Under the pieces are notes generated by a model that did no database searches, was not told the origin of the DNA, and was given only the letters and a program-made list of their open reading frames with translations. A DNA stretch of 64,000 nt from Pseudaestuariivita rosea. GTDB lineage: Bacteria > Pseudomonadota > Alphaproteobacteria > Rhodobacterales > Rhodobacteraceae. The stretch's first letter is position 1, and each line of letters begins with the position of its first letter. The stretch is from assembly GCF_017592335.1 (NCBI RefSeq), contig NZ_JACNMP010000004.1, positions 62,001 through 126,000 of the forward strand, read 5' to 3'. Made by a program: the position numbers and the translations under genes. Positions 38,102 to 41,452 of the stretch are shown piece after piece.

Positions 38102-39487
38102 ATGCCCGGTCGCATCCTGATAGTAGACGATGTTGCAACAAACCGCATCGTAATGCAGGTCAAGCTGGAAGCTGCGCGCTATCAGGTCCTGGTGGCGTCG
38201 TCTGGTGAGGATGCCATTTCAGCGGCCCAAAACGAAAGGCCGGATCTGGTTCTGGTCGACACCAAGTTGCCGGACATGACAGGGCGTATGCTGTGCAAAG
38301 CTCTGAAAGAAAATACAAAAACAGCGCAGATCCCAATCATCGTTATCACATCTGATGACGATGTAAGGGAAAAAATGGGCGCATTAGAGGCGGGCGCAGA
38401 AGAATTCTTATGCAAACCTATCGATGATATGACCCTATTGGCACGGGTTCGCAGCCTGTTGCGCGCCCGTGACGCAGCCGAAGAACTTCGGCTGCGCGAT
38501 GGAACCAGCCGCGCACTTGGATTTGCTGAAGATGAGACGGGATTCATCGCACCAGCGAAGGTCGCTCTGATCGCCGCTGATGACACCACCGCCAAGGCTT
38601 GGCAGAATGGCTTAAAAGACAAACTTCGCGACAAAGTCGAAATACTGGATAAAGATCGGGCATTGGATCAAGACAGCCCGCAAAAGGCCCCTGATGTTTT
38701 TGTAATCTCGGCACATCTTTCGACACCGCAGGAAGGATTGCGGCTGTTAACGGATCTTCGAAGCCGGGCCGCCACCCGACATTCATCAATACTGATCGTA
38801 CTGCCATCTGATGCCGGATATCTAAGCGCGATTGCGCTGGACCTGGGCGCGAATGATCTGATCAATGACGACTTCGAGTCGATGGAACTGGCGCTGCGCT
38901 TACGGACACAGATCAAACACAAGCGACACTCTGATCGTCTTCGCGCTAAAGTCCGTGATGGGTTGCAGGCGGCAGTCACTGATCCATTGACGGGGCTTTA
39001 CAATCGTCGGTACGCCATGCCGCATCTGACCCGCATAGCCGAACGTGCGCAAAGCAGTGAAAAGCCTTTTGCGGTGATGCTGCTGGATCTTGACTACTTC
39101 AAAAGCATCAATGACCGATATGGGCATGCCGCAGGTGATGATGTTCTGATTGATGTGGCCAAGTGTCTTCAGGAAAACCTGCGTGCAGTTGACCTGATTG
39201 CACGCATCGGCGGGGAAGAGTTTCTGATTGCGATGCCGGACACCTCGCTTCAGGCGGCCAAGGGTGCAGCAAAACGGCTGTGTCGTGTTATCCATGAAAT
39301 GCCAATCCGTGTTACAGGTTACACTGAACCTCTTCACGTCAGCGTCAGCATCGGCGTTGCGATGGGCGGCCAAGGCGGGCAGCCCGAGAAAACCGTTCAG
39401 GACACACTTCAGAATGCGGACAAGGCCCTTTATGAGGCGAAGTCAGACGGTCGAAATCAGGTCACCGTTAGCCAAAGTGCAGCTTAA
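38102..39487 (+). CDS. pleD: PleD-type response regulator diguanylate cyclase
   Basis: Protein of 461 residues with REC-REC-GGDEF layout. The first receiver has acidic residues D9 and D10 and phospho-acceptor D53 (LVDTKLPDMTG). The second receiver (about 150-270) is degenerate, as in Caulobacter PleD, where it serves dimerisation. The cyclase domain has the active-site loop GGEEF at 370-374 and an inhibitory RxxD site at 361-364, so it should make cyclic di-GMP with product inhibition. In Caulobacter it drives the motile-to-sessile switch. The start follows AAAGGTGATCA. Confidence 0.93.
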   Translation: MPGRILIVDDVATNRIVMQVKLEAARYQVLVASSGEDAISAAQNERPDLVLVDTKLPDMTGRMLCKALKENTKTAQIPIIVITSDDDVREKMGALEAGAEEFLCKPIDDMTLLARVRSLLRARDAAEELRLRDGTSRALGFAEDETGFIAPAKVALIAADDTTAKAWQNGLKDKLRDKVEILDKDRALDQDSPQKAPDVFVISAHLSTPQEGLRLLTDLRSRAATRHSSILIVLPSDAGYLSAIALDLGANDLINDDFESMELALRLRTQIKHKRHSDRLRAKVRDGLQAAVTDPLTGLYNRRYAMPHLTRIAERAQSSEKPFAVMLLDLDYFKSINDRYGHAAGDDVLIDVAKCLQENLRAVDLIARIGGEEFLIAMPDTSLQAAKGAAKRLCRVIHEMPIRVTGYTEPLHVSVSIGVAMGGQGGQPEKTVQDTLQNADKALYEAKSDGRNQVTVSQSAA

Positions 39488-39532: not shown

Positions 39533-39988
39533 TCAGTTAGCCCGACGACGTTGATTGACGATATCCTGCAAACGATTGGCAAAGGTCTGACGTTCATCGA
39601 ACGTCATTTGCTGAAGCCGTTCCAGCAACAATTCCCGCGCCACGAACTGTCTTTCAGTCGCAAAAGCATGCTGGTCCATTAGCAATGATCGCACGGCTTC
39701 AGCATCAAATGTTTCATCCCGAAGCAAGCTGAACATCTGCGCAAACTGACGACGACGTTCAATGATCATGCTGTCACGATCCTGAAATAATTGCCGCCCA
39801 ATGGCCCTGCGATCCGCAGGTTCAAGCGCACGTGCATAGGCCATGAACATATCAGGCTGAAAGTTCCGTCTCTGTGGCACACCCGATATAATTGCTCCAA
39901 TAACGGCGCCAATAATCAAAACATTCAGTGCAACCGAGCCGATGAAAGCAAATCGGATCCAGCGCGATGGTTTCGTCTGTTCAGCCAT
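39533..39988 (-). CDS. CpxP/CnrX-like periplasmic heavy-metal sensor protein
   Basis: 151 residues from ATG 39988 (MAEQTKPSRWIRF, AGAGG upstream), overlapping the previous stop as ATGA. One N-terminal membrane helix (about 12-34) anchors a helical periplasmic domain rich in Arg and Gln (RRAIGRQLFQDRDSMIIERRRQFAQMFSLL), like CnrX, ZraP and CpxP proteins of the metal-sensor (LTXXQ) superfamily. There is no His cluster, so metal binding is not evident. It is the last gene of an ECF sigma operon, where it may act as sensor or chaperone. Confidence 0.82.
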   Translation of the reverse strand: MAEQTKPSRWIRFAFIGSVALNVLIIGAVIGAIISGVPQRRNFQPDMFMAYARALEPADRRAIGRQLFQDRDSMIIERRRQFAQMFSLLRDETFDAEAVRSLLMDQHAFATERQFVARELLLERLQQMTFDERQTFANRLQDIVNQRRRAN

Positions 39989-40335
39989 CAGACCTCTTCC
40001 CAAAACATGTTTAGTCCAGACGAAAATCCATAGGAGATTTCATAGTCAGCGTTTTCGAACCCCGACAATACGGTCCACCCAAACAAATCAGGTGACATGA
40101 AACCAATGTAAAATCCGGCAATAGCCGCCGCAGTAAGCCCCGCCGCAATGGACAATCCTTGTTTTTGTATCAGACTGCGACGCAACCATTGAAGCGGCCG
40201 GCGGTGACCTGGCTGTACGGCCATAGCGTCTTGCATGATCCGCGCCACCAGATCTTGGGACGGTTGGGGCGCATGCTGCCGCGCCGCACGAAACATATCC
40301 TCAAGATCGTCTTTCTGACCAGGTTTATCGGACAT
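39988..40335 (-). CDS. Small membrane protein, candidate anti-sigma factor
   Basis: 115 residues: a cytoplasmic N-terminal half (DKPGQKDDLEDMFRAARQHAPQPSQDLVARIMQDA) followed by one membrane helix (about 63-80) and a short periplasmic end. The start overlaps the sigma gene stop by 11 bp. Size, topology and position fit a simple anti-sigma factor, although no ZAS-type zinc motif (HxxxCxxC) is present. Function is inferred from context. Confidence 0.75.
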   Translation of the reverse strand: MSDKPGQKDDLEDMFRAARQHAPQPSQDLVARIMQDAMAVQPGHRRPLQWLRRSLIQKQGLSIAAGLTAAAIAGFYIGFMSPDLFGWTVLSGFENADYEISYGFSSGLNMFWEEV

Positions 40336-40912
40336 ATCCCAAGACCTCTTTCTTGTCTGATAGCAGTTCTGCCAACCTGCGTTTTCCGCGCGACGTCAGG
40401 CTTTCGACGGCATCGACACTGATATCCATGATGTCGGCGATCTGCGGGTTTGCCAGCCCATCCAAGTGCCGCAAAATGACAGCCTGACGTTGCCTGCCGG
40501 GCAATTCAAGCAACGCCTGATGCAGGGCCTGCGATTGGTGCCGACTTTGCAGGCGATCCTCGGCCAGTGGTTGGTCATCTTCGATTTCAGGCATCTGATC
40601 TATCGTGTCATGTTTTTTCTTGCGCATATGATCAATGCATAAATTCGAAGTCACCCGATACAACCATGTTGAGACCTTCGCCTCGTCCTGTCGCCACTTC
40701 GGGGCATGTTTCCAAAGTCGAAGCATCGCATCTTGCACGATGTCGTCGACGTCGGACGATCGGCCCAGCATGCGATAAGCATATGCGTATATGACCGGTG
40801 TCAGACGCATCGTCAGCAACCGCGCAGCCGCTGTATCGCCGGATATATATCGCACCAGCAAGGCTTCATCACTCTCATCACTCATCATGCCATCAGGCGT
40901 CGGATCCATCAT
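40325..40912 (-). CDS. ECF-type RNA polymerase sigma factor
   Basis: 195 residues. Region 2 is AYAYRMLGRSSDVDDIVQDAMLRLWKHAPKW (core binding and -10 recognition) and region 4 is LPGRQRQAVILRHLDGLANPQIADIMDISVDAVESLTSRGKRRLAE (a -35 reading helix-turn-helix). Between them is an acidic linker. It is second in an operon after an EF-hand protein and before two membrane proteins. The regulon cannot be read from sequence. Confidence 0.93.
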   Translation of the reverse strand: MMDPTPDGMMSDESDEALLVRYISGDTAAARLLTMRLTPVIYAYAYRMLGRSSDVDDIVQDAMLRLWKHAPKWRQDEAKVSTWLYRVTSNLCIDHMRKKKHDTIDQMPEIEDDQPLAEDRLQSRHQSQALHQALLELPGRQRQAVILRHLDGLANPQIADIMDISVDAVESLTSRGKRRLAELLSDKKEVLGYVR

Positions 40913-40970
40913 ACATCAAGAAATCACATTGGCCGTGACAAGAAAACCTGTCGCTGCCAGACGCTGACCC

Positions 40971-41378
40971 CTATCTGTTCTGACGGTCACGAAAACGGTC
41001 CTGTGCGGCCTGATACTCAGCCTTGGACAAGGTGCCATCACCGTCCTGATCAATACGGCGAAACATACGACCGTTCCCGCGATTGGGCATCTCAGCCAGG
41101 CTAAGCTGACCATCATTATCGCGATCAAATCGGTCCAATAGTCGGGACGAACGCTGCGCTGACATTGCCTGCAGTTCGCTTTCAGACAATACACCGTTGC
41201 CATCCTGATCTGCGGCTTCAAAGCGTCGTTCGTGCTGCGCCTGCAGTTCGGCTTGGGTCAGTTGGCCGTCGCCGTTTGTGTCAAGAATTTCGAAAGAGAC
41301 ACCCTGCCCTGATGCATTGACCACGGCACCGACGATGATGAAACCCGCTGTAAAAAAGATCCTAGTCATTTTTGTCAT
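40971..41378 (-). CDS. Periplasmic EF-hand calcium-binding protein
   Basis: 135 residues with a signal peptide (1-24) and four EF-hand loops at 33-44 (DTNGDGQLTQAE), 57-68 (DQDGNGVLSESE), 85-96 (DRDNDGQLSLAE) and 110-121 (DQDGDGTLSKAE). All four keep the acidic ligands and the terminal Glu. It is the first gene of the operon with the ECF sigma factor, 58 bp upstream of it. A periplasmic calcium sensor or buffer linked to envelope stress signalling is a fair inference. Confidence 0.9.
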   Translation of the reverse strand: MTKMTRIFFTAGFIIVGAVVNASGQGVSFEILDTNGDGQLTQAELQAQHERRFEAADQDGNGVLSESELQAMSAQRSSRLLDRFDRDNDGQLSLAEMPNRGNGRMFRRIDQDGDGTLSKAEYQAAQDRFRDRQNR

Positions 41379-41424
41379 TCCGATTGTTGCGAATATATAT
41401 CAAACGGGCGTCCGCGATATTTCC

Positions 41425-41452
41425 GTCGCAAAACCTGGAAAAATTTTGCGAC
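41425..41452. promoter_or_regulatory. 9-bp exact inverted repeat between EF-hand and DUF983 genes
   Basis: GTCGCAAAA (41425-41433) and TTTTGCGAC (41444-41452) flank a 10-bp spacer. It lies 46 bp upstream of the EF-hand start and 66 bp upstream of the divergent DUF983 start. It may be an operator or the 5' hairpin of one of the transcripts. Confidence 0.5.

Follow-up and report, generated by a model that had tools for sequence, protein, structure and literature searches.

The closest described counterpart of the locus analyzed here, a four-gene operon built around an extracytoplasmic function (ECF) sigma factor on a 64,000-nucleotide (nt) stretch of the Pseudaestuariivita rosea genome (contig NZ_JACNMP010000004.1; termed here the window), is the cabp-sigV locus of Caulobacter vibrioides (CCNA_02838/02837), which was reported in May 2026 and which encodes the EF-hand protein CaBP and the ECF sigma factor SigV (PMC13171946). 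As presented in the main text of that report, CaBP is periplasmic, cabp and sigV respond to ethylene glycol tetraacetic acid (EGTA) and to acid and activate one another, SigV raises cabp expression, and the cabp promoter, mapped by 5' rapid amplification of cDNA ends (5'RACE), consists of GGAAA-13 nt-CGTTCA (PMC13171946). The published model shows the membrane component as a question mark and names no anti-sigma factor, and none of CCNA_02836, CCNA_02835 and CnrX appears in the main text (PMC13171946). A literature search on the Caulobacter locus tags returned no paper beyond this one.

Other described systems resemble parts of the locus. CnrYXH of Cupriavidus metallidurans (pMOL28) likewise combines an ECF sigma factor, a one-helix anti-sigma factor (a candidate here), a periplasmic sensor of family PF13801 and a resistance-nodulation-division (RND) pump as its target (predicted here); however, it has no EF-hand gene, its gene order is Y-X-H, and CnrY is unrelated in sequence to the candidate anti-sigma factor of the window, whose predicted pump target, moreover, maps to another part of the genome and is of multidrug type by its scores. 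The sensor CnrX is characterized by a histidine-rich Co/Ni site. The CpxP and Spy proteins are matched by the profile of the fourth protein of the operon, which differs from them in having an N-terminal hydrophobic helix and in being partnered by an ECF sigma factor instead of the CpxRA two-component system. Finally, an Azospirillum brasilense operon encoding RpoE8, a hypothetical protein and a periplasmic heavy metal sensor (AMK58_24940-24950) has, by annotation, the same three-gene core and is raised upon RpoE6 overexpression; the portions of the source drawn on here mention no EF-hand gene (PMC12826043).

Here the window locus is compared with these systems, and its relatives, promoter and predicted targets are surveyed among related genomes. 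The results point, with a probability of roughly two in three, to an autoregulated envelope-stress sigma switch that controls efflux.

Anatomy and conservation of the four-gene unit

All four genes lie on the minus strand. A 135-residue EF-hand protein (P0001; 40971..41378), identified from its open reading frame and Pfam match and corresponding by position to CaBP, is followed after a gap of 58 nt by a 195-residue ECF sigma factor (P0002; 40325..40912), orthologous to the sigV product of Caulobacter relatives; the sigma gene overlaps by 11 nt the gene for a 115-residue one-helix membrane protein (P0003; 39988..40335), the candidate anti-sigma factor, and this in turn overlaps by 1 nt the gene for a 151-residue periplasmic Metal_resist protein of the CpxP/Spy/CnrX superfamily (P0004; 39533..39988, from its ATG). 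A first-pass annotation of this DNA had described four genes in tight order encoding a protein with four intact EF-hands, an ECF sigma factor, a one-helix protein lacking the zinc anti-sigma motif and a CnrX/CpxP-like protein, and each of these assignments was borne out. Pfam finds four EF-hand stretches within P0001 (PF00036, E 1.5e-22), sigma-70 regions 2 and 4 within P0002, no domain within P0003, and PF13801 (Metal_resist), barely above its cut-off (30.8 vs 29.2 bits), within P0004. The next-best sigma factor of the same genome is merely 27% identical to P0002.

To place this arrangement in context, the family was taken as Rhodobacteraceae and the class as Alphaproteobacteria. In the window's GTDB family, sampled at one genome per genus, 168 of 198 genomes contain the sigma factor with an E-value of at most 1e-30, and the family loci considered below are 34, the window's own included (the best 30 of the 168 matching genomes plus four from another draw). 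Every one of these 34 has all four genes, with the EF-hand gene directly upstream and the Metal_resist gene downstream of the sigma gene. Across the class, 128 of 385 genomes, five of them from the window's own family, match at E 1e-25; this list provided 105 other-family loci, some genomes giving two. Here the EF-hand gene is directly upstream in 53, the Metal_resist gene downstream in 94, and both hold in 46. The four-gene unit is thus real and conserved, and its recurrence is far from chance. Some of the 11 loci without Metal_resist are cut short at a contig end, two lie next to flagellin-like genes, and one (L055) has an EF-hand replacement: there a secreted EF-hand protein occupies the Metal_resist position after the small membrane protein, possibly reflecting a swap of the sensor-like partner. 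The two flagellin-associated loci (L067 and L101, identified by eye among the 105) have a sigma factor of the same broad family directly before the flagellin-like genes, an arrangement that recalls Azospirillum RpoE6; they probably represent another sigma subgroup.

The relationship to Caulobacter was examined through six loci of relatives of C. vibrioides, all from one genus, with the family taken as Caulobacteraceae and with some published primer sites present. All six have all four genes (i.e., EF-hand upstream, Metal_resist downstream and, by position, a middle open frame). In one of them (L175), four of eight published primers have close matches (0, 1, 1 and 1 mismatches), the rest differing at 3 to 6 positions, near background. 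Its SigV, that of a sister species, is 43% identical to P0002 over 181 residues and, when compared with the six sigma loci that a P0002 search recovers in the window's own genome, matches P0002 clearly best (2e-41 vs 7e-14 for the next). The window locus is therefore an orthologue of the published CaBP-SigV locus: as there, a secreted EF-hand gene directly precedes an orthologous ECF sigma gene, the difference being that Caulobacter CaBP has three EF-hands and the window protein four. It follows that the link between an EF-hand protein and an ECF sigma factor is already in print and is not new. The suggestion of the first-pass annotation that such a pathway had not been well described was accurate until May 2026, when the cabp-sigV work appeared; its further proposal of a calcium-responsive envelope sigma pathway agrees with what is published for the Caulobacter orthologue, namely an ECF envelope pathway with a calcium-binding protein and a response to EGTA and acid (PMC13171946); for the window locus the calcium input is plausible.

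That input would be via P0001, whose N-terminus looks secreted (judged by eye) and whose four loops, DTNGDGQLTQAE, DQDGNGVLSESE, DRDNDGQLSLAE and DQDGDGTLSKAE, are all canonical. The hallmark of lanmodulin is a proline at loop position 2; P0001 has T, Q, R and Q there, and it scores 56.5 bits against the NCBIfam LanM cut-off of 135, so that identity as a lanmodulin was rejected.

The candidate anti-sigma factor and the Metal_resist protein

Topology prediction divides P0003 into a cytosolic N-terminal part of about 60 residues, a hydrophobic helix (residues 61-79) and an acidic periplasmic tail. A profile built from the family matches the middle protein in 34/34 family loci. (E-values for this profile and for that of P0004 come from searches of small open-frame sets, and the corresponding alignments, A1 and A2, contain 33 and 31 sequences hand-chosen from 142 and 134.) By position alone, a middle open frame is present in 142 of 145 loci and has a clear hydrophobic helix in 122 of these; because positive charge is greater before the helix than after it in 119 of the 122, the N-terminus of the middle protein is taken to be cytosolic. 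Non-family middle proteins usually have a longer N-terminal part bearing a YGADPxRWPxxER-like segment, whereas the window's family retains the second part only.

The HxxxCxxC motif is absent from all 142 candidate middle frames, P0003 included, and a class I zinc anti-sigma domain is likewise absent from P0003, for which there is no Pfam match and no NCBIfam match above cut-off. Homology to CnrY was considered and rejected: hhalign assigns the P0003 family a probability of 0.3%, and PF17524, which CnrY itself matches, is not found. Habitually, a one-helix protein that is co-encoded with an ECF sigma factor and has its N-terminus inside is a likely anti-sigma factor. By this analysis, P0003 is likely to be an anti-sigma factor of a new sequence family. 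Its dissimilarity is compatible with such a role, since a published comparison notes that anti-sigma classes bind in a shared way although their sequences have very little in common (PMC7406223).

P0004 has an N-terminal hydrophobic helix (residues 16-34) that is taken here as a membrane anchor, a signal peptide being also possible. Its profile matches Spy (1.9e-6), NccX (7.8e-6), CnrX (3.9e-5) and CpxP (1.5e-3), and hhalign relates it to CnrX with a probability of 75% (E 2.6e-5). The histidine-rich site of CnrX, however, is not found: P0004 contains one histidine, and neither histidine nor cysteine reaches half of any column among 31 homologues, at least one histidine occurring somewhere in 124 of 134. 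Its membership of the CpxP/Spy/CnrX superfamily, together with the lack of a conserved histidine site, makes it more probable that P0004 senses folding or protein contacts than that it senses cobalt/nickel.

A matching pair of proteins appears in Caulobacter relatives. In four of these (L173, L175, L176 and L178), the gene after sigV encodes a one-helix protein weakly matching the P0003 profile (E 5e-4 to 0.08, in a small set of frames), and the next gene a protein matching the P0004 profile (1.5e-13 to 9e-19); C. vibrioides itself has a PF13801 protein above cut-off. Judging from these relatives, the membrane link left open in the CaBP-SigV model is probably encoded by the two genes after sigV.

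Promoter and predicted regulon

Upstream of the EF-hand gene, GGAA-N14-CGTT occurs in 24 of the 34 family loci, while any other spacer between 8 and 21 gives at most one; dinucleotide shuffles give a mean of 0.285 and a maximum of 2 in 200, and the reverse strand gives 0. The remaining 10 loci have the variants CGTA (8) or CGTG (2). The 24 loci show hardly any variation in the nine letters GCGACGGAA or in CGTT, the latter being mostly followed immediately by T and three places on by A. The window site, GCGACGGAAATATCGCGGACGCCCGTT, occupies 41403..41429 of the minus strand (i.e., reading from 41429 to 41403) and lies 24 nt before the first ATG. Outside the family, GGAA-N14-CGTW is found in 18 of 58 loci with an EF-hand gene (the six Caulobacter relatives included; other spacers 7) and in 13 of 53 without one (other spacers 5); N14, being the commonest in both sets, is thus favoured outside the family as well. 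The site is present in each of the six Caulobacter-relative loci, and the window promoter shares its architecture with the 5'RACE-mapped cabp promoter (GGAAA-N13-CGTTCA-like). Promoters of the general stress sigma factor EcfG have the consensus GGAAC-N16/17-CGTT, a spacing that the operon does not show, N14 being present in 24/34 loci and no other spacer above one. GCGACGGAA-N14-CGTT is probably the promoter of the operon, read by the operon's own sigma factor.

Further targets were sought with this pattern. Sites with two mismatches are not enriched in the window's own genome (171 vs 375 for the reversed pattern), and therefore strict sites alone were used. Exact GCGACGGAA-N14-CGTW sites number 238 in 110 family genomes, against 66 for the reversed pattern. 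Sigma-bearing genomes (n=93) average 2.47 sites and 0.67 controls, and sigma-lacking genomes (n=17) 0.47 sites and 0.24 controls; the difference in site count reaches significance (p=6.9e-7, or p=0.0017 after taking off one site per sigma-bearing genome), but these values are indicative only, as the controls shift the same way and the genomes are related. Downstream of 72 sites, 40 of which were hand-picked partly for recurrent sequence (so that the shares of downstream genes are biased), are genes for efflux adaptors (24), EF-hand proteins (12, at least 8 being the operon itself) and RpoH (4), besides small groups and 22 singletons.

Efflux was pursued by using as query the adaptor of the window's own genome (P0005), which was picked for its one-mismatch site, and by taking the 30 best protein-similarity matches of 90 matching genomes among the 110; with the query's own locus excluded, n=29. 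A site with at most one mismatch precedes the RND adaptor orthologue in 21 of these 29 genomes (16 exact, 5 with one mismatch), 64-128 nt before the start. Controls give none at this threshold, the reversed sequence never having fewer than 4 mismatches and the opposite strand never fewer than 3; mismatches number 2 and 5 in the two adaptor loci whose genomes lack the sigma factor. The adaptor of the window's genome scores above the RND_mfp cut-off, and a permease-like gene follows it there and in two other genomes read; the one of the window's genome obtains 399.6 bits as a multidrug RND protein and 195.4 bits as CusA/CzcA, and no score reaches its curated cut-off. The RND efflux adaptor is accordingly predicted to be under control of the operon's sigma factor.

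RpoH was rejected as a general target and is regarded as a minority one: sites with at most one mismatch precede 5 of 29 rpoH orthologues besides the query's own genome (controls 0). In the few genera concerned (loci among L233, L273, L274, L276 and L352-L381), the site suggests a possible cascade from ECF sigma factor to heat shock; one bearer, L233, comes from an 85% complete genome in which the sigma factor was not found. Also rejected was the second exact site of the window's own genome (C46:154177), which lies inside a 292-residue open frame with no gene start near and is taken as chance.

Several other sites are recorded as observations. A one-mismatch site of the window's genome (G000:C21:31628-31654; L189, L345) precedes a gene for a small secreted R/E/D-rich repeat protein, and two similar proteins in other genera (L234, L266) have exact sites. 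Among Caulobacter relatives, a conserved copy of the site is followed by a small secreted protein (L314, L315, L317, L329), that of L314 being without a Pfam match. A PhyR-like gene (named by eye) was set aside as a further Caulobacter target: the six promoters read (L319, L325, L327, L328, L331, L340) carry GGAAC-N13-CGTT overlapping with GGAAC-N17-CGTT and are more likely EcfG/SigT sites. Apart from the operon, the window encodes at 38102-39487 (plus strand), convergent to it, a PleD-like response regulator with a GGDEF domain (E 1.6e-85 to Caulobacter PleD). The Rfam family CC2171 is widespread in the class, with matches at E 0.001 in 85 of 385 genomes, 13 of them above cut-off, and in many families; G000:C33:1330-1505 is among the matches.

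A putative envelope-stress switch and competing explanations

The proposed switch would operate as follows. At rest, the cytosolic part of P0003 would tether the sigma factor P0002 to the inner membrane; the periplasmic tail of P0003 would be monitored by the CpxP/Spy/CnrX-like P0004, while the calcium-binding P0001 in the periplasm would add to or tune the signal. Low calcium or envelope damage would free the sigma factor, which, as comparative genomics suggests, would then act through GCGACGGAA-N14-CGTT on its own operon and on the RND efflux adaptor, and which may also reach rpoH in a minority of genera. Since the site precedes both operon and adaptor, the response would be self-amplifying and would export something.

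A number of observations weigh against this interpretation. Neither Pfam nor profile comparisons match P0003 to any known anti-sigma domain. The charge rule places the N-terminus inside for just 83 of 132 P0004 homologues, so that their orientation is deduced from the Pfam family and from where the helix sits, close to the N-terminus, and the single-sequence AlphaFold model of P0004 is too poor for use (mean confidence, pLDDT, 56). The strict site occurs in merely 31 of 111 non-family loci, six of these being the Caulobacter relatives; the adaptor site of the window's own genome carries one mismatch; and the reversed-pattern control is itself higher in sigma-bearing genomes (0.67 vs 0.24), so that genome size or composition accounts for part of the contrast in site number. 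In 52 of 105 other-family loci (a few being contig-end cuts) no EF-hand gene is found immediately before the sigma gene, and most of these retain sigma factor and Metal_resist. In Caulobacter, the main text of the cabp-sigV report states that deleting cabp does not significantly alter sigV at 6 h, that CaBP is repressive in acid, that cabp and sigV are separate transcripts, the sigV promoter being intragenic, and that both depend on SigT (PMC13171946).

How P0001 participates is the point on which explanations diverge most directly. The 52 loci without an adjacent EF-hand gene imply that the core can do without this protein, so the view of the first-pass annotation that it is 'the' sensor is doubtful. 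It could instead be an output, i.e., a periplasmic protein or chaperone that binds calcium and is produced once the sigma factor is active, with P0003 and P0004 alone sensing envelope damage in the form of misfolded protein, in the manner of CpxP and Spy. Retention of Metal_resist in 94 of the 105 loci, Spy as the best match to the P0004 profile and the presence of the (hand-picked) site before at least two further, non-operon EF-hand genes (L248, L265) make this a serious contender, though one that falls short of even odds: the EF-hand gene directly precedes the sigma gene in 34/34 family loci and, according to the published account, EGTA induction of the cabp promoter requires CaBP, overexpression of which raises sigV expression, data that mark CaBP as a modulator linked to calcium (PMC13171946). 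A role in sensing or tuning the signal thus has a modest edge over one as output. A more specific arrangement, in which the calcium-loaded EF-hand protein and the CpxP-like protein jointly hold a new class of one-helix anti-sigma factor, forming a two-input periplasmic gate from which calcium loss would release the sigma factor to induce RND efflux, is put forward tentatively and seems rather unlikely.

The other competing explanations concern what is sensed and which sigma factor reads the site. A resistance switch of the Cnr type for cobalt/nickel-like heavy metals, in which P0004 would sense the metal and the RND pump would export it, would be in keeping with the combination of ECF sigma factor, one-helix protein and predicted RND output, with the shared PF13801 membership of P0004 and CnrX and with the profile matches to NccX and CnrX. 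It is nonetheless quite improbable, given the lack of detectable relationship between the P0003 family and CnrY, the single histidine and absence of conserved His/Cys columns in P0004, and a pump that scores better as multidrug than as heavy-metal RND. The Cnr resemblance noted in the first-pass annotation therefore extends to layout and output but not to membership. Alternatively, the site could belong to another sigma factor (EcfG of the general stress response or an ECF26 relative), the operon being merely one target: GGAA...CGTT resembles both EcfG sites and the ECF26 consensus GGAATA/GT, six promoters of a PhyR-like gene that the pattern matches in Caulobacter relatives also bear GGAAC-N17-CGTT, and cabp and sigV are reported to depend on SigT (PMC13171946). 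This too appears unlikely in view of the almost exclusive N14 spacer of the operon, the greater number of sites where a P0002-type sigma factor is present (controls being also higher there) and the finding that SigV itself raises cabp expression (PMC13171946).

As far as the searches reach, four features of the envelope-stress switch proposed here are new: the layout of all four genes throughout the class, a candidate anti-sigma factor, a sharply defined promoter consensus and a predicted RND output, none of which is described in the open-licence literature searched. The P0003 and P0004 homologues are concrete candidates for the missing membrane link of the EF-hand/ECF circuit, the sole one found in print. 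Together with a precise, mutable promoter and a predicted output (RND efflux and, in some genera, rpoH), they make EF-hand-based calcium sensing in bacteria directly testable, both in Caulobacter and in laboratory strains from the window's family. If the proposed switch is true, it would link envelope calcium to drug-type efflux; and, should the two-input gate be true as well, a calcium-to-efflux pathway would be spread over the alphaproteobacteria.

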